NCBI RefSeq assembly: GCF_004698125.1
Contig: NZ_ML214297.1
Coordinates: 1,178,001-1,242,000 of the forward strand
Source of the DNA: Halosimplex halophilum
GTDB taxonomy: Archaea; Halobacteriota; Halobacteria; Halobacteriales; Haloarculaceae
Direction of reading: 5' to 3'
DNA: 64,000 nt
Position 1 is the first letter of the stretch; every line of letters starts with the position of its first letter. Below, in pieces: positions 18,022-31,906 of the stretch. The translations under genes and the position numbers were made by a program. The notes beneath the pieces were generated by a model. The model did not search any database. It was not told where the DNA came from and saw nothing but the letters and a program-made list of their open reading frames with translations.

Positions 18022-19401
18022 TCAATCGTCACCGGCCGCTTCGTCACCGACCGTCTCGCCCCCGGACCGCTCCGCGGCCGCGTCGATGGGGTCGGAGTCC
18101 CAGTAGGGGTGGTCGTCGACCAGCCGGAAACACGCCGCCCGCTGGCCCGGCGCGTCGCCGTCGTAGTCGTCGGGCGCCTCCGCGCGGCAGGCCTCCCGGG
18201 CGTGCGGACACCGGGTGTGGAACCGGCAGCCCGCCGGCGGGTCCCGCGGCGAGGGCACGTCGCCTTTCAGCGGGTCGACCCGGCGGCCCTGCTCGCTGGT
18301 GTCGGCGCGGGGGACGCTCTCCAGCAGCGCCCGCGTGTAGGGGTGCTGGGGGTCCTCGAAGATGGCGTCGACCGGGCCCCGTTCGACGATCTCGCCGAGG
18401 TACATCACCGCGACGCGGTCGGAGATGTGCCGGACCACACTGAGGTCGTGGGCGATGAACAGGTAGGTCAGCCCCATCTCCGCCTGCAGGTCGTCGAGGA
18501 GGTTGAGGATCTGCGCCTGGACGCTCACGTCCAGCGCGCTCACGGGCTCGTCGAGCACGAGGAAGTCCGGTTCGAGCGCCAGCGCCCGGGCGATGCCGAG
18601 CCGCTGGCGCTGGCCGCCGGAGAACTCGTGGGGGTAGCGGTCGACCTGGTCGGCCGACAGCCCGACCCGCTCCAGCAGTTCCTTCGCCTGGTCGCGCCGT
18701 ATCTCGTCGATCGACCGGTCGACCCGCACTTCCACGACCACTTGGTCGTCGCCGCTCCCGCCGCCATTACCGCCATTACCACCATCTGACGCCGCCGATC
18801 CGCCGCCCCGGACCACCTCGGCGGCCAGGTCCTCGGCGACGGTCGCGGACAGCTCCCCGCCGCGGCGCCGGACCGTCACGTGGACGGTGGCGACGCCGTC
18901 GACGGCGTCGACCACGCGGTCGGCGTCGTCGGCCACGCGGACCTCGACCCGGTCGGCGTCGATGCCGTCGACGTTCACCTCGGCCTCGGTCCGCACGTCG
19001 GGGTCGGTCTCGGGCAGCCCGTGGATCACGAGCGGTTCGGTGACGATGGCCCCGGCGGTCTGGCGCGGGTCGAGGCTGGAAAAGGGGTCCTGGAACACCA
19101 CGCCCGCGCGGCGGCGGAACGCCGCCACGTCGTCGCGGTCGAACACCGACTCGCCGTCGAAGCGCACGTCCCCGGCGGTCGGGTCCTGCAGCGCGAGCAG
19201 CGTCTCGCCGGTCGTCGACTTGCCACAGCCCGACTCGCCGACCAGCCCGAGCGTCTCGCCCTCGGCGACCTCGAAGCTCACGCCGTCGACCGCCCTGACG
19301 CTCCGGCTCTCGGCGCCGAGCAACCGGTCCAGTAGCGAGTCGTCGTCCGCGAAGTGCTTCTTCAGCCCCTCGACTTCCACCAGCGGGCGGTCCTCACTCA
19401 C
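18022..19401 (-). CDS. dppF: Peptide-type ABC importer ATPase DppF/OppF with an inserted domain
   Basis: 459-residue ATPase of a dipeptide/oligopeptide importer. Walker [10 protein letters not shown] is at about 55-63, the Q-loop [10 protein letters not shown] near 103, signature SGGQRQR near 261, Walker B DFLVLDEP next, H-loop FIAHD, and the oligo_HPY tail with [10 protein letters not shown]. Between Q-loop and signature there is an insertion of roughly 100 residues (about 134-234): two beta-rich segments ([16 protein letters not shown] and [11 protein letters not shown]) and a Gly/Asn/Ser linker. Such ATPases are normally about 330 residues. GTG 19401 is taken as start; GTG 19410 is also possible. 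Last gene of the operon, overlapping dppD. Confidence 0.9.
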
Positions 19402-20626
19402 GGCGACCACCTCCGTTCGACCCGCCGTCGAGCTCCCCGCTCCCGTCGAAGAAGCCGTCGGGGAGCGCGGCGGCCTCGCTGTACTCGCGCTCGGCGAGGA
19501 CGCACCTGGCGCCGTGCTCGCCGCCGAGGTCGAACTCCGGCGGCTTCTCCAGGCAGTGCTCCATCGCCTTCGGGCAGCGGTCGGCGAAGTAACACCGGTC
19601 GTCCATCTCCTCGTCGCGCAGGCTCGGGACCGACCCCTCGATGGGTTGTAATCGCGCCGCCGGGTCCGCCAGATCGGGGATCGACCCGACGAGCCCCTCG
19701 GTGTAGGGGTGGACCGACTCCTCGAAGATGTCTTCGAGCGTCCCGCGCTCGACGATCTCGCCGGCGTACATGACGCAGACCCGGTCGCTCATCCGCGCGA
19801 TGACGCCCAGGTCGTGGGTGATGAGCAGGACGCTCATGTCCCGCTCGGCCTGGATCTCCCGGAGGAGTTCGAGGATCTGCGCCTGGATGGTCACGTCCAG
19901 CGCGGTCGTCGGCTCGTCGGCGACCAAGAGGTCGGGCTCGCCGGCCAGCGCCTGGGCGATCATCGCCCGCTGGAGCATCCCGCCGGAGAACTCGTGGGGG
20001 TACTGCTCGGCCCGCTCAGCGGGGTCGGGGATGCCGACCTGCTCCAGCAGTTCGACCGCCCGGTCGTGGCTCTCCGGGTCCGTGTAGTCGCGGCCGGGGA
20101 CGACCCCGTCCAGCAGGTACGACCCCAGGCCGTACCCCTGCGTGCGCGAGCGGGTCGAGCGGGGGCGGGCGCTCGCGCGGCGCTGGACCTCGACGGCCTC
20201 GGCGATCTGCTCGCCGACCGTCAGCGACGGGTTGAAACTGCTCATCGGGTCCTGGAAGATCATGCTGAACGACGGCCCCCGCAGCGACCGCCGCACCCGC
20301 TCGGGCAACTCCAGCAGGTCGACCATCTCCCCGTCGGCGGCGTCCGGGAACTCCTCGGCCAGCTCGGGGTCGCGGTAGCGGATCTCCCCCTCGGTCACCC
20401 GGCCCGGCGACTCGACGAGGTCGACCAGCGAGAGGGCCGTGACCGATTTCCCGGAGCCCGACTCGCCGACGATCCCCAGCACCTCCCCCTCGCGCACGTC
20501 GAAGTCGACCGACTCGACGGCGTTGACCTGCCCCCGCTCGGTGAAGAAGCGGGTCGACAGATCGCGGACCTGGAGGAGGTCGCGGGCGTCGCTGTCGACA
20601 TCGGTGTCAGTATCCGCGTCGCTCAT
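19394..20626 (-). CDS. dppD: Peptide-type ABC importer ATPase DppD/OppD
   Basis: 410-residue ATPase. Walker A GESGSGKS at about 54-61, Q-loop [10 protein letters not shown], signature SGGMLQR (the usual SGGMxQR of DppD), Walker B LLVADEP, H-loop LITHDLG, and the oligo_HPY region with [16 protein letters not shown], whose cysteines in relatives bind an iron-sulfur cluster. There is a short insert around residues 150-175 ([20 protein letters not shown]) between Q-loop and helical domain. It is the partner NBD of DppF; together they power the DppBC pore. Start ATG overlaps the dppC stop by one base. Confidence 0.93.
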
Positions 20627-21756
20627 CAGACGCCACCCCCTTCACCCTCGATGCCGGGGTCCAGCGCGTCGCGGAACCAGTCGCCGATGAGGTTGATGCC
20701 GATGACCGTGAGGACGATGGCCAGCCCCGGCATCGCGGCGATCCACCACGCGGTCGTCTGGTACTCCCGGCCCTGGGAGATGTCGAAGCCCCACGAGAGG
20801 GTCGTCCCGGAGAACCCGAGGAAGGATAGGGCGCTCTCCAGCAGGATGATCGCCGCCACCTGGATCGTCGCCAGCACCAGAATGGGCGTGAGGCTGTTGG
20901 GCAGGACGTGCTTGCGGATGACGAACCGGTCGGAGGCGCCCAGCGACTCCGCGGCGGTGACGTACTCCTCCTCGCGGACGGACAGCGCCTCCCCGCGGGC
21001 GACGCGGGCGAACCACACCCAGTTGACCAGCCCGACCACGACGATAACGGTCCCGGGGAGCGTGAACGTCTCCGGCATCCCGGTCGGGTAGGTCAGCCCG
21101 CCGGGCAGCGATATCGCCCCGCGTATCACCGGTGCGATCCCGGTCACCACGAACGGGTCCGGGACCGCGACGCTCGCCTCGCCCCACAGCCCCACCAGCG
21201 CGATCGCCAGCACGAGCGACGGGAACGCGAGGCTCACGTCCGCGATCCGCATCAGCAGGTCGTCGACCCGGCCGCTGTAGTACCCCGAGACCAGCCCCGT
21301 CGGCACGCCCAGCAACATCGCAAGAGTCGTCCCCAGCAGGCCGACCAGCAGCGACGTGCGCGCCCCGTAGATCACCCGCGAGAGCATATCGCGGCCGAGC
21401 CCGTCGGTCCCCAGCGGGTGGGCGGTCGTCGCGTTTACCATGACGGTCTCGTTGGTGATCTGCAGGCTCCCGTTGACCATCTCCTGGCCGGTCTGTGTCT
21501 CGGTGCGGCTGAACCCCAGCGGCGGCTGTTGCTCGTTCTCGAGGTTCTGGTTCGTCGGGTTCCACGGCGCGACCAGCGGCGCGAACACCGCCAGCGCGAC
21601 CATCAGCGTGATCAGGGCGATCCCGAGTTTCGCCAGGAAGCTGCGGTCGAACTCCCGGCGGAGGTTGCGCCGCGTCCGCGGCGACACCGACGAGCGCAGC
21701 GCCGATGCGAGTCGGACGGGGTTCAGATACCGGAGCAGCGTGTCGAGTCGTCCCAT
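20626..21756 (-). CDS. dppC: Peptide-type ABC importer permease DppC
   Basis: 376-residue membrane permease. After a basic N-terminal region, TM1 lies at about 43-63 (LGIALITLMVALAVFAPLVA), then an extracellular loop enlarged to about 75 residues (including ENEQQPPLGFSRTETQTG and NATTAHPLGTDGLGRD), followed by five helices of the BPD_transp_1 domain. The EAA coupling loop is EYVTAAESLGASDRFVIRKHVLPN. Start and stop overlap its neighbours by one base each (ATGA-type), so the operon is tightly coupled. Confidence 0.93.
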   Translation of the reverse strand: MGRLDTLLRYLNPVRLASALRSSVSPRTRRNLRREFDRSFLAKLGIALITLMVALAVFAPLVAPWNPTNQNLENEQQPPLGFSRTETQTGQEMVNGSLQITNETVMVNATTAHPLGTDGLGRDMLSRVIYGARTSLLVGLLGTTLAMLLGVPTGLVSGYYSGRVDDLLMRIADVSLAFPSLVLAIALVGLWGEASVAVPDPFVVTGIAPVIRGAISLPGGLTYPTGMPETFTLPGTVIVVVGLVNWVWFARVARGEALSVREEEYVTAAESLGASDRFVIRKHVLPNSLTPILVLATIQVAAIILLESALSFLGFSGTTLSWGFDISQGREYQTTAWWIAAMPGLAIVLTVIGINLIGDWFRDALDPGIEGEGGGV

Positions 21757-22778
21757 CAGTCCATCACCTGTGGATCCAGCGTCGCGTACAGCGCGTCGAC
21801 GACGATGTTCACGACCACGAAACCGATGCCGATGACCACCAGACAGCCCTGGATGAGCGGCCAGTCGCGGTTGCCGATGGCGTCGATGACCAGCGTCCCC
21901 AGCCCCGGCCAGTCGAAGACCGCCTCGGTGATCACCGCGCCGCCGACGAGCGTCCCCATCTGGAGGCCGACGACCGTGATCACGGGGATGAGCGTGTTCC
22001 GCAGCGCGTGGCGGTACCGCACCAGCGTCTCGGGCAGCCCCTTCGCCCGCGCCGCGCGGACGTAGCCCTGGCCGAGCTGGTCGAGCATCCCCGAGCGGGT
22101 CAGCCGGGTGATCAGCGCCGTGAAGTACGTCCCCAGGGTGATCGCCGGCAGCGTGATGTACAGCAGCCACGACCGCAGGTCGGCCAGGAACCCGGACACG
22201 TCCAGCGGCGCGGCGTAGCCCTGCTGGGGCCCCGCGATCACCACCAGGTTCCCGAGGGCGTCGAGCAGCCCGACCGGGCGCGTGCTCGTCGGGAACACGT
22301 CGAACTGCACGGCGAAGACGATGACGAGCATCACGCCCAGCCAGAAGTTCGGCGTCGAGATGCCGACCAGCGAGAACAGCGTCGCGCCGTAGTCGGCCGG
22401 GCCGTGCCGGTGGGTCGCACTGACCACGCCCAGCGGGATCGAGAGCACGACCGCCACGAACGTCGCGGCCAGCGCCAGCTCCAGGGTGGCCGGCACCTTC
22501 GCCAGCACGCGCGGCCGGACAGGCGTCCGCGACCGGTAGGAGTAGCCCATGTCGCCGGTCAGCAGATCCGCGACGTAGTCGACGTACTGGACGTACAGCG
22601 GCCTGTTCAGCCCCAGGTTCTCGGCGATCCGGCGGCGGGTGGCCTGGCTGGCGTCCAGCGGCGCGATGAAGTCGACCGGGCTCCCCGGCGTCACGTACCG
22701 CAGCAGGAAGACGACGGTCACGACACCAAGCACGACCGCCAGCCCCTGCAGCGCCCGCCGCGCCAGGAACCGACCCAT
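21756..22778 (-). CDS. dppB: Peptide-type ABC importer permease DppB
   Basis: 340-residue membrane permease with six helices. The N-terminal TM1 and the extracellular loop with FIAPLDASQATRRRIAENLG and PLYVQYVDYVADLL are those of DppB/OppB. The EAA loop is QGYVRAARAKGLPETLVRYRHALRN. ATG 22778 (MGRFLARRALQGLAVVLG) is preferred to a GTG three codons earlier. It forms the pore with DppC. Follows the substrate-binding protein after a 52-base gap. Confidence 0.92.
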   Translation of the reverse strand: MGRFLARRALQGLAVVLGVVTVVFLLRYVTPGSPVDFIAPLDASQATRRRIAENLGLNRPLYVQYVDYVADLLTGDMGYSYRSRTPVRPRVLAKVPATLELALAATFVAVVLSIPLGVVSATHRHGPADYGATLFSLVGISTPNFWLGVMLVIVFAVQFDVFPTSTRPVGLLDALGNLVVIAGPQQGYAAPLDVSGFLADLRSWLLYITLPAITLGTYFTALITRLTRSGMLDQLGQGYVRAARAKGLPETLVRYRHALRNTLIPVITVVGLQMGTLVGGAVITEAVFDWPGLGTLVIDAIGNRDWPLIQGCLVVIGIGFVVVNIVVDALYATLDPQVMD

Positions 22779-22830
22779 CGACGCCACGCTACCGCCCCCG
22801 CTCCGGCGCGTGCGCCCGCGTCGGCGACAT

Positions 22831-24507
22831 CTAGCTGTCGGTCCCGGTCTCCCCGCCGCCCATGCTCTGGGCCTCGTTGATCAGCTCGTCGACCCGCTCG
22901 TTCTTGTAGGAGGTCAGCGCCCCGTCGGAGGTCAGCAGCGGGATGATCGTCTGACTCGCGTCGAAGGTGGCGTTGCCCCAGCCGATGAGGTAGAACGCCG
23001 GCCCCGTCGTGATGTCGCCGTCGAGCAACACGTCGGTCAGGTTCCCGAAGTCGCGCTGGTTGACCGACGCCGAGACGTTTTCCAGGTCGTCGATGTAGCC
23101 GACGACCGCCTGGGCGATCTCCAGGTCCTTCAGGTACCGGCCGTTCGGCGTGTGCAACTCGATCTCCGCGCCCGCGTAGCCGCTCTCCTCGACCAGCCGC
23201 TCGGCCTCCTCGGGGTCGTGCGGATAGGGGTCCAGCTCCGAGTTGTACCCGGTAAAGCCCTCCAGCGTCGGCTGTCCCGTCCCGTCGCCGAACCCGGAGA
23301 GGACGCTCTCGACGATGCTCTCCAGGTCGACGGCGTAGTTCATCGCCCGCCGGAACTCGACGGAGTCGAACGGTTCCCGGTCGTAGATCATCGCGTTGTA
23401 GATGATACGGGTGCTCGGGACCGCGCTGATCTCCGCGTTGTCGGCCTGGTCGACCTGGCTGATGTTCTGTGGCGGGACGTTGACGATCACGTCCGTCTCG
23501 CCGCTGACCAGCTGGTTGACCCGCGTGCTCGCCTCGCTCGCGGCCGTGATCACCAGCTCGTCGGCCGGCGCGCCGTCCTTCCAGTAGTCGCCGTACGCCT
23601 CGAAGGTGACCGACACGTCCTGCTCGTAGTCGGCCAGCTGGAACGGGCCCGTCCCGTTCATGTGCGTGTTGATGTACGCCTCGTCGTTGCTCTCGACCCA
23701 CGACTTGTTCATCACGTCGCAGTAGGTCGCGAACAGCGCGAACACGATGGGGTTGATCCCCTCGGACTCGACGATCACGGCGCTGTCGCCGTCCGCGGGT
23801 TCGGCCCCGGTCACGCCCGCGAGCTGGTCGGACTGGGGGCTGTCCAGCCCGCCGACCTCCGGGTCGACGATCCGGTTGATCGAGAAGGCCACGTCCTCCT
23901 TGGTCAGCGAGTCGCCGCTGTGGAACGAGACGCCCGACCGGAGCTCGAACCGCACGCGCCCGGCTTCGAGCCGCTCGTAGCCCGTCGCCAGCTCCTGGAT
24001 GACCTTCCCCTCGCGGTCGCGCGACAGCAGCCCCTCGTAGGCCTGCAACACGATGTTGTCCGTCGGCGTCTCGCGGTGGTCGTGGGGGTCCAGCCCCGAG
24101 TCCATGGCCGACTGGGTGATCTGTACCGTGTCGGTGTCGCCCGTCGGCTCGATGGCGTACCCGTCGATGCGCTCGTCGCGGCGGGCCTCCCAGTCCACGT
24201 CGGTCGACTTGCCGTAGACGGAGTACTGGCGGTTCAGGAAGATCCACGGCGCCTCCTCGTGGAGCAGGCGGTTGGCCCGTTCGAGGTAGCCGACCCGCGT
24301 CTCCGGCTCCGGGAGCGGCGTCCCCGTCTCGGTGCCGGTGTCGCCACCGTCACCGCCGTCGCCGCCGCCTCCGCCGCCGTCTCCACCATCGCCGCCGTCG
24401 CCCTCCGTCGGCGTCTCCTCGCCGCCCGAACAGCCCGCGACCGCGGCCGCTCCCGCGGCGGTCCCGGCCAGCTTCAGGAAATTCCGTCTGTCGATATCTC
24501 GTGCCAT
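22831..24507 (-). CDS. dppA: Peptide-type ABC importer substrate-binding lipoprotein, apparently circularly permuted
   Basis: 558-residue extracellular SBP_bac_5 protein. A Tat signal (RRNFLKLAGTAAGAAAVAGC, lipobox Cys 26) anchors it to the membrane. A Gly/Asp linker spans about 27-68. Residues 69-121 (RVGYLERANRLLHEEAPWIF...ARRDERIDGYAIEP) look exactly like the C-terminal end of this family (the EEAPWIFL and G/W-RPDERID segments). The ordinary N-terminal part starts only at about 125 (DTVQITQSAMDSGLDPHD) and the protein stops abruptly after SYKNERVDELINEAQS, where the moved segment would normally follow. The other substrate-binding protein of this window is not rearranged. ATG 24507 is preferred for a standard Tat signal. 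Confidence 0.92.
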   Translation of the reverse strand: MARDIDRRNFLKLAGTAAGAAAVAGCSGGEETPTEGDGGDGGDGGGGGGDGGDGGDTGTETGTPLPEPETRVGYLERANRLLHEEAPWIFLNRQYSVYGKSTDVDWEARRDERIDGYAIEPTGDTDTVQITQSAMDSGLDPHDHRETPTDNIVLQAYEGLLSRDREGKVIQELATGYERLEAGRVRFELRSGVSFHSGDSLTKEDVAFSINRIVDPEVGGLDSPQSDQLAGVTGAEPADGDSAVIVESEGINPIVFALFATYCDVMNKSWVESNDEAYINTHMNGTGPFQLADYEQDVSVTFEAYGDYWKDGAPADELVITAASEASTRVNQLVSGETDVIVNVPPQNISQVDQADNAEISAVPSTRIIYNAMIYDREPFDSVEFRRAMNYAVDLESIVESVLSGFGDGTGQPTLEGFTGYNSELDPYPHDPEEAERLVEESGYAGAEIELHTPNGRYLKDLEIAQAVVGYIDDLENVSASVNQRDFGNLTDVLLDGDITTGPAFYLIGWGNATFDASQTIIPLLTSDGALTSYKNERVDELINEAQSMGGGETGTDS

Positions 24508-24805: not shown

Positions 24806-25130
24806 ATGTCATATGTCTGGTGGGGTCAAATAGAGTATCACCTGCAATCTGGATCGCACACGGTCTACGCGCTCCAATACCGCTTCGTGACCCTCACGAA
24901 GCACCGCGCCGGTATCCTCACCGATGAGCGGCTGGAGCGCGTGGCTGAAGTCGCTCACGGGATTGCAGAGGACTTCGAGGCCGACATCAAAAACGTGGAC
25001 GGCGGCACCGACCACGTTCACATCCTGTTCACGACCAAACCCACCACCGACCTCACGAAGTTCATCAACTCGCTCAAGGGTGTCACCTCGCGCCGGATTC
25101 GGCAGGAGTACCCCGAGGTGAAACAGACGC
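24806..25130 (+). pseudogene. tnpA: Truncated IS200/IS605 TnpA (Y1 HUH transposase)
   Basis: The frame encodes about 108 residues of a single-strand transposase, including IEYHLQSGSHTVYALQYRF, GILTDERLERVAEVAHGIA and the HUH motif HVHIL. It then stops matching the family after YPEVKQT: the part that should hold the catalytic tyrosine and last helix (about 40 residues) is missing. The open frame continues, but as antisense of the neighbouring oppF. No tnpB is present. It sits between two importer operons and appears immobile. Confidence 0.85.
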
Positions 25131-25138
25131 GCCGCTCC

Positions 25139-26434
25139 TCACCGCACTCCGTCGTGATCTGGGTGGTCGCCGTGGTGGCGGTGACAGCGGCTCTCGCGCG
25201 CGTCCGTCTCGACGAGCCCGGGGTCGGCGGTAGTACACACGCTCCCGAAGGCGTCGTCCAGACGGTCCAGCGCCGCTTCCGGTCCCCGGTCGCGGTAGGC
25301 CGCGAAGACGGCATCTATCGCGTCCGACGCCTCGGGGCCGGGATCGATCCCATCGAAAAGGTCTGCACGGAGTTCGTTCCCCCCCGTCCGTGAGCCGCGA
25401 CCGAGGAGTGACAGCACTCGTGCCCCGAGCGAGTCATGCTGGACGGTCCGCTCGCGGAGCACCGACCGGAGCGCCTGGACGGCTTCAGCGGTCTCCGGTC
25501 CGGTATCAACGCCCTCGTGTATCGCCACGGGACAGCGACTCGCGAACGGGCAACCCGCTGGGGGGTGGCGTGGATCGGGGGGCGACCCGCGGAGCGAAAC
25601 GGGATTCAGTTCCACGTCGGGGTCGGGTTCGGGGATCGCGGTCAAGAGCGACTCAGTGTACGGGTTTGCGGGGTCGTCCAGCACCGCGTCGACGGGCCCC
25701 CGCTCCATCACCTCCCCAAGGTATAGGACAACCACCCGATCGGCGATGTGTCTGACCACACCGAGGTCGTGGGTGATGAAAAGGTACGTCAGCCCCATCT
25801 CCGCCTGCAACTCGTCGAGCAACGAGAGGATCTGGGCCTGCACGGACACGTCGAGCGCGCTCACCGGCTCGTCGAGGACCAAGAAGTCCGGCTCCAGCGC
25901 CAGCGCGCGTGCGATGGCGACGCGCTGGCGCTGACCGCCCGAGAATTGGTGGGGGTAGCGGGCGTACCGGTCGGGGGACAGCCCCACCGCGTCGAGCAGG
26001 TCGAACACCCGTTCGCGGCGCTCGGGCGCCGTCTTCCAACCGTGGATGTCGAGCGGCTCTCTGATTATCTCGCCAACGGTCTGGCGGTCGTTCAGGCTCG
26101 ATTCGGGGTCCTGAAACACCATCTGACAACGCTGGCGGTATCGAGTGAGCGCCTCACCGCCCACCTGGGAGATGTCCCGGCCGTCGAACTCGATGGTCCC
26201 GTCGCTCGGCCGGTCGAGACGGGCGAGCGAGCGCCCGAGCGTCGTCTTCCCGGAACCGGATTCGCCGACGACCGCAAGGGTCTCACCGCGCTTGACCGAG
26301 AGGGAGACGCCGTCGACCGCCTTGACCGGCGGGTCCGAGAGGACACCACCCTCGTCGTAGTACTTGCGGACGTTCTCGGCTTCGAGCAGCGTTTCGCCGA
26401 CGACGGTGTCCGTCTCACCACGTAGCGCGCTCAT
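25139..26434 (-). CDS. oppF: Second peptide-type ABC importer ATPase OppF
   Basis: 431-residue ATPase. Walker [10 protein letters not shown] at about 56-64, Q-loop [10 protein letters not shown], signature SGGQRQR, Walker [10 protein letters not shown]-loop FITHDLG, then the oligo_HPY region with [12 protein letters not shown]-terminal extension of about 110 residues ends in [11 protein letters not shown]...[10 protein letters not shown], an extension I associate with haloarchaeal peptide ATPases. Its stop codon lies within about 10 bases of the end of the IS remnant, so the last residues may have been replaced by the insertion or deletion event. It overlaps oppD by 4 bases. Confidence 0.9.
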
Positions 26435-29995: not shown

Positions 29996-31906
29996 TCACT
30001 CCATCGAGAGCGTGTCGTACTGGAACTCGTGGAAGCTCGACGTCTTCACGCTCGTGTCGACCGCGTCGTACCAGTACTGCTGGGCAACGGGGTGGTAGTC
30101 GAGCAGTGCCGGCACGTCCTCCCAGTTACACTCCTCGATGGCGAGGTAGGCCTCGTTGCGGGCCTGTTGTTCGGCCTCGCTGGGGCCGAGGTTGTCCTGT
30201 ACCCTGGCCCATGCCTCGGAAGCGCGCGTCGCCGCCTCCGTCTGGGGGCCTTTCCCGTCGACGTCGCCCCAGCGGGTGAAGTTGCTCTCCGTCGGGTGCG
30301 CGAGCCGGAGCGTGTCCGCCGGCGAAGGGTAGGCGAGCCCGTTGCCCAGCGAGAAGAACTCCAGGCGGTTGTTGAGTGCGCCGTCGATGATCGCCGAGAA
30401 CGGCTCGCGCTCGATGGAGAGGTCGATGTGGGCGCTGCCCAGCTGTCCCTCCAGCACCTGCGCGATGCGGCCGTAGGCGTCGGGTTTGCGGTCGGTGTAG
30501 ATCGTGAACGTGAGTTCGTACGGCGAGTCGGCCCCGTACCCGGCGTCTTCCATCGTGGCGCGGGCCTCGTCCATGCGCGTCTCGTTGATGCCGTAGGGGT
30601 AGCCGTCCGCTCCGAACTCCGTCTGGGAGTTGGCCCCCTCGCGGGCGTGGGCGTCGTAGGCCTCGGCGCCGCCCGGGAAGACCGACGGCGGCGTGAAGTG
30701 ATACGCCGGCTGGCCGAGGTTCCGGAACCCCTGGCTGACGAACGTCTCCTGGTTGGCCACGTACGCTGTCGCCTGTCGAACCGGCTTGGGGACCTGATTG
30801 GTGTTGAAGATGAACCACGCGGTGTAGTTCGTCGGGTAGGTGCCGTAGTTGACCGTCGCACCGTTGTCGAGCGGCCCGTACTCGCCGACGGCCTGGCCGA
30901 ACTCCAACTGCTCCATGTTCGACACCTTCGAGGGGTCGAAGTTGGAGGTCGGCAGCCGGAACATGTCGGCGTTGCGGTTGTTGGCGTAGGTAACCCGCGC
31001 GTTCGGGTCCTCCAGGATCTGCATGGCGATCGTCGAGACGTTCGGCCCGTCGCCGTGGTAGTTCTCGAACGCGCTCAGCGACGCCGACGTACCCGAGGTG
31101 AAGCTCTCGAACGTAAAGGGCCCCGTCCCGACGGGGTTGCCCTGCGCGAACTCCTCGTAGGCCATCTCGCCGTCGTAGCCCTCGATGTCGCCGACGATCC
31201 CCTCGGGGATCGGCGCGAGCACGCCGTTCGAGAACTGATAGAGCGCGTCGTAGAACGGCTGGGCCAGCTCGACGCGGAGGGTGTAGTCGTCGACGGCCTC
31301 GACGCCCAGGCTCCCGGGGACGTAGTTGCCCTCGGAATCGGTTTCGTGGGCGAACTGGAACACCCCGCCGAGGATGAGGTCGGTCTCCTGGGTGTTCGGC
31401 GAGGCGGCGATGCGCTCCCAGGAGTAGACGAAGTCCTGTGCGGTGAGTTCGGTCCCGTCGTGGAACTGGACGCCCTCCTTCAGCGTGAACGTGTAGGTGG
31501 TGTTGTCCTCGGAGACCGAGTAGTCGGTCGCCAGGTTCAACTCCGGTTCCAGACTCCCACGGGGGAGGGTGGTGAGGGTGTCGTAGACCTGCTGTGTGAC
31601 CTTGGTCGAGCCGTCGCCCTTGATCACGATCGGATCGAACGAGTCCGTGCTGGAGATGGCCAGGTTCAGCGTCGACGCCGAACCGCTGTCGGTCTCGCTG
31701 CTGCTCTCGGTGTCGCTACCGTCGGAGCCGTCGCCGCTGTCACCGCTGTCGGAACCGTCCATCGGTGTCGACCCGCCGTCGCCCGACGCGTCCGTCCCGC
31801 CGCTGTTCGTGCTGTCCGACCCACACCCGGCCAGCATCGATGCTCCCACCGCCGTCCCTGACAGAAGTACCCGCCGACGCGAATACGCCCGCTTGTCCGA
31901 ATCCAT
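29996..31906 (-). CDS. oppA: Second peptide-type ABC importer substrate-binding lipoprotein
   Basis: 636-residue extracellular SBP_bac_5 protein. N-terminal Tat-type lipoprotein signal (SRRRVLLSGTAVGASMLAGC), a Ser/Asp/Gly-rich linker of about 60 residues, then the binding fold starting NLAISSTDSFDPIVIKGDG with TYTFTLKEGVQFHDG and an ordinary C terminus (NWEDVPALLDYHPVAQQYWYDAVD). Domain order is the normal one, unlike the first importer. ATG 31906 places the Arg-Arg motif close to the start and is supported by a TATA-like box 26-31 bases upstream. First gene of the A-B-C-D-F operon. Confidence 0.92.
   Translation of the reverse strand: MDSDKRAYSRRRVLLSGTAVGASMLAGCGSDSTNSGGTDASGDGGSTPMDGSDSGDSGDGSDGSDTESSSETDSGSASTLNLAISSTDSFDPIVIKGDGSTKVTQQVYDTLTTLPRGSLEPELNLATDYSVSEDNTTYTFTLKEGVQFHDGTELTAQDFVYSWERIAASPNTQETDLILGGVFQFAHETDSEGNYVPGSLGVEAVDDYTLRVELAQPFYDALYQFSNGVLAPIPEGIVGDIEGYDGEMAYEEFAQGNPVGTGPFTFESFTSGTSASLSAFENYHGDGPNVSTIAMQILEDPNARVTYANNRNADMFRLPTSNFDPSKVSNMEQLEFGQAVGEYGPLDNGATVNYGTYPTNYTAWFIFNTNQVPKPVRQATAYVANQETFVSQGFRNLGQPAYHFTPPSVFPGGAEAYDAHAREGANSQTEFGADGYPYGINETRMDEARATMEDAGYGADSPYELTFTIYTDRKPDAYGRIAQVLEGQLGSAHIDLSIEREPFSAIIDGALNNRLEFFSLGNGLAYPSPADTLRLAHPTESNFTRWGDVDGKGPQTEAATRASEAWARVQDNLGPSEAEQQARNEAYLAIEECNWEDVPALLDYHPVAQQYWYDAVDTSVKTSSFHEFQYDTLSME

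Follow-up and report, generated by a model that had tools for sequence, protein, structure and literature searches.

A naturally circularly permuted SBP_bac_5 lipoprotein at the head of a haloarchaeal Dpp/Opp-type importer operon, and permuted relatives with other breakpoints

The P0001 gene, located on the reverse strand of a 64,000-nucleotide stretch of the Halosimplex halophilum genome (hereafter the window), heads a complete five-gene Dpp/Opp-type importer operon. An initial annotation had described a substrate-binding protein within an importer operon at this position; its reading frame, sequences and coordinates for P0001 are confirmed, and the complete Dpp/Opp-type gene set lies downstream. 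The features are given below with the evidence for each in parentheses.

22831..24507, minus strand: P0001, circularly permuted SBP_bac_5 lipoprotein gene, 558 aa (Pfam, BLASTP, wrap-around profile)
24430..24507, minus strand: P0001 twin-arginine (RRNF) signal and lipobox to Cys26, residues 1-26 (TAT_signal slightly below the Pfam cut-off; lipobox by eye)
24316..24429, minus strand: P0001 Gly/Asp-rich tether linker, residues 27-64 (sequence)
24145..24315, minus strand: P0001 displaced C-terminal segment, residues 65-121 (identity to orthologue C-termini, dN/dS)
24127..24144, minus strand: P0001 short linker TGDTDT closing the old C- and N-termini (orthologue comparison)
22873..24126, minus strand: P0001 N-terminal strand and remaining fold, residues 128-545 (53-64% identity to normal-order orthologues)
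22834..22872, minus strand: P0001 new C-terminal end, Gly/Glu/Thr-rich, residues 546-558 (sequence)
P0001 new-order junction sequence: RIDGYAIEPTGDTDTVQITQSAMDSGLDPHDHR
21756..22787, minus strand: DppB-like permease (PF00528, PF19300; next gene at permuted and normal-order orthologue loci)
20626..21756, minus strand: DppC-like permease (PF00528, PF12911; 5' end placed by means of the OppC_N match, the ORF as listed starting at 22170)
19394..20626, minus strand: DppD-like ATPase (PF00005, PF08352)
18022..19410, minus strand: DppF-like ATPase (PF00005, PF08352)

The DppF-like ATPase contains a Gly/Ser/Asn-rich insertion of ~110 residues inside ABC_tran, the match spanning 249 residues for a 137-position profile. 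Approximately 300 bp upstream of the P0001 gene, between two importer operons, an IS200-type transposase ORF (24806-25393, plus strand) matches PF01797 over its first ~110 residues; its C-terminal part looks unrelated, and the ORF is possibly a truncated insertion.

P0001, whose lipobox reads AVAGC, has Pfam matches to SBP_bac_5 and TAT_signal only. The SBP_bac_5 match (PF00496) scores 206.9 bits against a cut-off of 32.4 and is confined to residues 169-529. It is silent on residues 69-121, and the order of the chain was therefore tested with full-length homologues. Among solved proteins, AccA aligns to P0001 in two parts, with residues 65-108 corresponding weakly to chain positions 433-476 (6.4 bits) and residues 152-459 to positions 29-347. 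The domain, homology outside the domain and the operon context place P0001 in SBP_bac_5 (cluster C); the usual N-to-C order is absent, and the family is defined by homology, order being merely typical. By homology P0001 falls outside type I/cluster B (MglB), and the PDB matches listed are cluster C proteins. The AlphaFold2 model of P0001, with a mean pLDDT of 51.8 and a pTM of 0.36, is too poor to carry a structural claim.

Comparison with normal-order homologues reveals two segments in swapped order. Against L048 (550 aa), BLASTP aligns residues 128-543 of P0001 to 74-487 (63% identity) and residues 69-121 to 497-549 (66%, E 1e-22). The same swapped two-segment pattern is obtained with L046, L047, L049, L051, L052, L053, L055, L056 and L096; the normal-order set thus comprises L046-L049, L051-L053, L055 and L056 from the same family, together with L096, which comes from another family of the same order. 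At least nine close homologues carry the equivalent of residues 69-121 (24145-24303) as an ordinary C-terminus, with 41-66% identity and E values of 1e-8 to 1e-22, and the P0001 core matches the normal-order orthologues from near their N-terminus onward. In the nearest orthologues (L046-L048), the moved segment is 60-66% identical and the core 63-64%. With tail and core identity about equal, it is the gene's own end that moved, not a piece borrowed from a distant gene.

For a wrap-around test, 19 normal-order proteins (E. coli DppA, GsiB, OppA and NikA, nine orthologues and six paralogues from the same genome) were used to build a profile, which was then doubled head to tail, and the bits gained over the best normal-order match were scored. 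P0001 runs unbroken over positions 426-907 of the doubled profile, starting at 426 in copy one and ending at 425 in copy two, with a gain of 49 bits. P0001 and 18 permuted orthologues gain 42-63 bits, against at most 3 bits for clearly normal-order proteins, E. coli controls included, L152 excepted. L152 passed the automatic threshold weakly (6.5 bits), yet its normal-order match is complete, and it was assigned to the normal-order proteins. P0001 ends at position 425 of the profile and its moved segment starts at 426, an exact complement; this breakpoint corresponds to mature residues ~450/451 of E. coli DppA. The initial annotation, which had the family's C-terminal segment ahead of the N-terminal strand and the chain ending where that segment would be expected, was right on both points, and the arrangement is a circular permutation. 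The second binding protein of the window (29996-31906) is in normal order by the wrap-around profile, as had also been proposed.

Relatives of P0001 occur in 58 of the 146 genomes covered by a same-family search. Other genomes were checked for the permuted order, which extends over the whole length in 19 genomes from seven genera (loci L027-L045, 63-100% identical). Chance is excluded as the source of the P0001 order. In a carefully built tree of the shared core, the permuted P0001-type genes are nested within normal-order genes (joint clade support 100/100), so the permuted order is the derived one. Seventeen of the 19 form a single clade (100/99), with the divergent L044 and L045 apart, and a single origin for all 19 is not rejected (p-AU 0.08); by this tree, the order arose once or twice at the same breakpoint. 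At permuted and normal-order orthologue loci alike, the gene next to that of the binding protein encodes DppB (57-94% identity), which indicates that the rearrangement took place in situ. Measured against orthologues at 69-92% protein identity, dN/dS is 0.08-0.30 for the moved segment and 0.16-0.29 for the core, and both are under purifying selection. The new C-terminal end differs in length among the permuted orthologues. Five of them (L035, L037, L040, L042 and L043) bear long Gly/Ser/Asn-rich tails there that resemble lipoprotein linkers.

The H. halophilum genome holds 19 PF00496 matches in ~18 genes. A first hint of a permuted paralogue came from an ORF at C1:126356-128077, in which PF00496 profile positions 257-359 stand ahead of 1-260. 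Four further SBP_bac_5 paralogues with other breakpoints (L011, L012, L014 and L015) are permuted, each by a two-segment match in swapped order or by a wrap-around gain. The initial observation was correct but understated: with P0001, the genome encodes five permuted members of the family. L011, L012 and L015 have the second half first, an order termed class A, and L014 has the last ~60 residues first. Residues 286-641 of L012 match 82-422 of L098 (49%), and residues 67-275 match 426-629 (43%), in swapped positions; L014 is permuted by comparison with L018 and L013. Low wrap-around gains of 7-10 bits were obtained for L015, L099 and L138. The gain of L015 is the weakest (7 bits), and its assignment rests on the profile together with a full-length class-A profile match; that of L138 rests on the profile, and for L099 the two-segment BLASTP matches to L009 and to four close relatives confirm the permutation. 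L099 (G176:C1) and L014 (G000:C1:1317693) are separate permutations of the P0001 type, with the C-terminal unit first, in different SBP subfamilies and within normal-order relatives. P0001 itself is not class A: it breaks at 425|426, not at ~327-345, and groups with normal-order orthologues in the core tree.

Class A is widespread. Twenty regions from other haloarchaeal genomes, picked for a PF00496 match ending at ~257-297, are all second-half-first (21 ORFs, L069-L088). The class-A profile A3 matches at E<=1e-60 in 72 of 116 haloarchaeal genomes sampled across the class (~60%); nearly all A3 matches listed span moved segment and core in one piece, with just two or three starting at the core. 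Nearly full-length class-A profile matches were also observed in G264, G294 and G256, which belong to other orders of the same phylum, and this suggests that permuted SBPs may occur in other archaeal families of the phylum. Class A is further present in Pseudomonadota, Bacillota, Spirochaetota, Actinomycetota, Deinococcota and Chloroflexota, including plasmid genes of Nitratireductor, Neorhizobium, Ketogulonicigenium and Maritalea. It was found on contigs named Brevibacillus reuszeri, Anoxynatronum, Halomonas, Trueperaceae, Spirochaetaceae, Micromonosporaceae, Desulfobacteraceae, Acidiferrobacteraceae and Chloroflexi; some of the bacterial contigs are metagenome bins, possibly misnamed, and isolates are also represented. 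Residues 238-565 of one class A protein, L109 (WP_206544944.1), align to 22-345 of the solved AppA (1xoc; 110 bits) and residues 80-204 to 375-495 (35 bits). No permuted member is apparent among the 60 solved relatives listed, the best match starting near or beyond the class-A junction region.

On a 90-protein core tree, a quick tree with some weak branches, permuted and normal order require at least eight changes. One ancient permutation, with all permuted forms in a single clade, was rejected (p-AU 1.8e-69). Four permuted sets (the P0001 group, L012/L072/L073, L014 and L099) lie inside normal-order groups, and class A represents a further origin or more. The tree thus points to at least five independent origins within SBP_bac_5, which we treat as a working minimum and not as an exact count. 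The breaks occur in three stretches of the profile (~295-315, ~327-345 and ~400-433), which correspond to mature E. coli DppA residues ~320-338, ~350-361 and ~420-458. We take all three sites to lie in lobe II (DppA domain III, about 261-478).

Very probably, P0001 is a naturally circularly permuted SBP_bac_5 (cluster C) lipoprotein that works in a Dpp/Opp-type ABC importer. The ancestral gene, in normal order, would have had its old C-terminus (DAYAxxP-like) joined via the short linker TGDTDT to the old first strand (VQITQ), and its chain reopened in the loop ahead of the last helix-strand unit (profile 425|426), with the Tat signal, lipobox and Gly/Asp linker retained at the front. The likely product is the usual two-lobed clamp, unchanged, with the old termini sealed. 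The lipid anchor would then enter at a different point, presumably on lobe II, judging from the domain borders of DppA, and the anchor's former place would be taken by the closed old termini. P0001 is expected to bind a solute and hand it to the neighbouring DppB/DppC as the normal-order orthologues would. In-frame duplication followed by trimming is the textbook route to circular permutation, and nothing here contradicts such an origin; neither a duplication intermediate nor an extra tail copy was found, the tail copy having been sought within the 64-kb window.

Whether the permutations carry a function of their own is a separate matter from the permutation itself. One reading takes them for neutral accidents, real but tolerated by a fold with nearby termini and without functional consequence, and we regard it as evenly balanced between true and false. 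The old termini of P0001 are joined by only ~6 residues, and class A is represented in diderm Pseudomonadota by proteins that lack a lipobox, which means that membrane tethering is no general requirement. At least five origins with breakpoints limited to three positions of the fold suggest, on the other side, constraint or advantage. The adaptive reading, which the neutral one rivals, is a possibility that we hold with some doubt: permutation may be a recurrent, adaptive evolutionary mode in cluster C proteins, at least five events at three lobe II sites having put the anchor or N-terminus on the other lobe and so changed the presentation of the clamp to the permease or its closure on the ligand, with haloarchaea, whose binding proteins are Tat-exported, long-tethered lipoproteins, as a hot spot. 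Tethering, which Brautigam et al. considered as a possible reason for permutation in TpMglB-2 (PMC4990184), was rejected as the general reason: the haloarchaeal permuted SBPs are lipoproteins and most diderm class-A proteins are not.

For the P0001 order itself, an unlikely alternative is domain replacement: the gene would have gained its N-terminal segment from another SBP gene and lost its first C-terminus, so that it looks permuted although its own end never moved. Such an event would give the same order, and haloarchaeal genomes hold many potential donors, as the PF00496 census illustrates. The near match between the identities of segment and core to L046-L048 largely refutes it; the segment has no significant match to the C-termini of the other paralogues tested. 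Only a near-identical copy of this gene could have served as donor, and gaining the segment from such a copy would be equivalent to permutation by duplication. A DNA rearrangement, programmed or ongoing, that switches orders within populations is less probable still. Low-complexity repeats flank the junction and the IS200-type ORF lies nearby, but the window holds no second tail copy, the order is fixed in 19 genomes, and the breakpoint texts are no more alike than composition predicts. The initial annotation had singled out these Gly/Glu/Thr-rich texts as alike and as a possible site of recombination; shuffled sequences score as high 230 times in 2000 at the protein level and 273 times in 2000 at the codon level, and recombination through the breakpoint texts is unsupported. 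An assembly or reading artefact, or an ordinary N-terminal domain in a family with a naturally short C-terminus, is barely credible: GC-rich tandem Gly/Asp codons do adjoin the junction and P0001 by itself lacks a Pfam match over the moved segment, but 19 independent assemblies agree, which excludes misassembly, at least nine orthologues have residues 69-121 as their C-terminus, and independent paralogues with other breakpoints behave alike.

Permutation by circular rearrangement is known from another SBP. TpMglB-2 (Treponema pallidum Tp0684) is a naturally circularly permuted SBP lipoprotein of an ABC importer; its crystal structure has been solved, it binds D-glucose, and it was proposed to define a "Type Ic / Cluster Bc", with domain replacement raised as a possible route (PMC4990184). 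Like P0001, it is a circularly permuted binding lipoprotein of an ABC importer. It differs in having a type I/cluster B sugar-binding fold where P0001 is cluster C, in that its N-terminal part moved to the end whereas the C-terminal part of P0001 moved to the front, and in forming one described group, mostly from treponemes and Gram-positive bacteria. The novelty suggested initially for a permuted importer binding protein consequently does not extend to SBPs overall. It stands for SBP_bac_5, where no report of natural permutation was found in the open-access full-text literature, subscription papers lying outside the search. Within that scope, what is new here is permutation in SBP_bac_5, with repeated origin and wide spread.

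Within PF00496, the normal-order proteins DppA, OppA, GsiB and AppA are homologous to P0001 throughout and share its operon type and signal-to-permease context; P0001 differs in having the C-terminal ~55 residues first and the termini linked, and in ending at DppA ~450/451. The class A proteins (L109, L011, L012) are natural permutations in the same family, with an earlier break (DppA ~320-360), ~140-180 residues moved and distinct origins; class A also occurs in many bacteria, most diderm members being without a lipobox. Laboratory biosensors likewise combine circular permutation with Venus-flytrap proteins but are engineered, and it is mostly the inserted reporter, not the binding protein, that is permuted (PMC6335823).

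SBP_bac_5 is a large and much-studied family of transporter proteins, and none of the solved homologues listed appears permuted. Recurrent natural permutation at a few positions makes it possible to test how chain order affects folding and clamp closure, and how the position of the membrane tether affects substrate hand-over to the permease, questions usually studied with engineered proteins. Matched pairs are at hand in permuted and normal-order orthologues with 53-64% core identity in the same operon.

The fold search was run on the L012 model (AlphaFold2, pLDDT 71.5, pTM 0.68). A sequential structure search matched it to DppE/OppA/DppA over ~285 of ~500 columns with a target TM of 0.41, as expected where only the normal-order part can be aligned sequentially; the partial match is consistent with a permuted clamp, short of proof. 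This carries a warning for annotation. Domain searches cover part of a permuted protein and sequential structure searches align about half, so the permutation is missed and the label reads just "ABC transporter substrate-binding protein". An insertion of ~55-65 residues between profile positions ~57 and ~60 was also observed in L078, L079 and L103, the first two of which are second-half-first as well.
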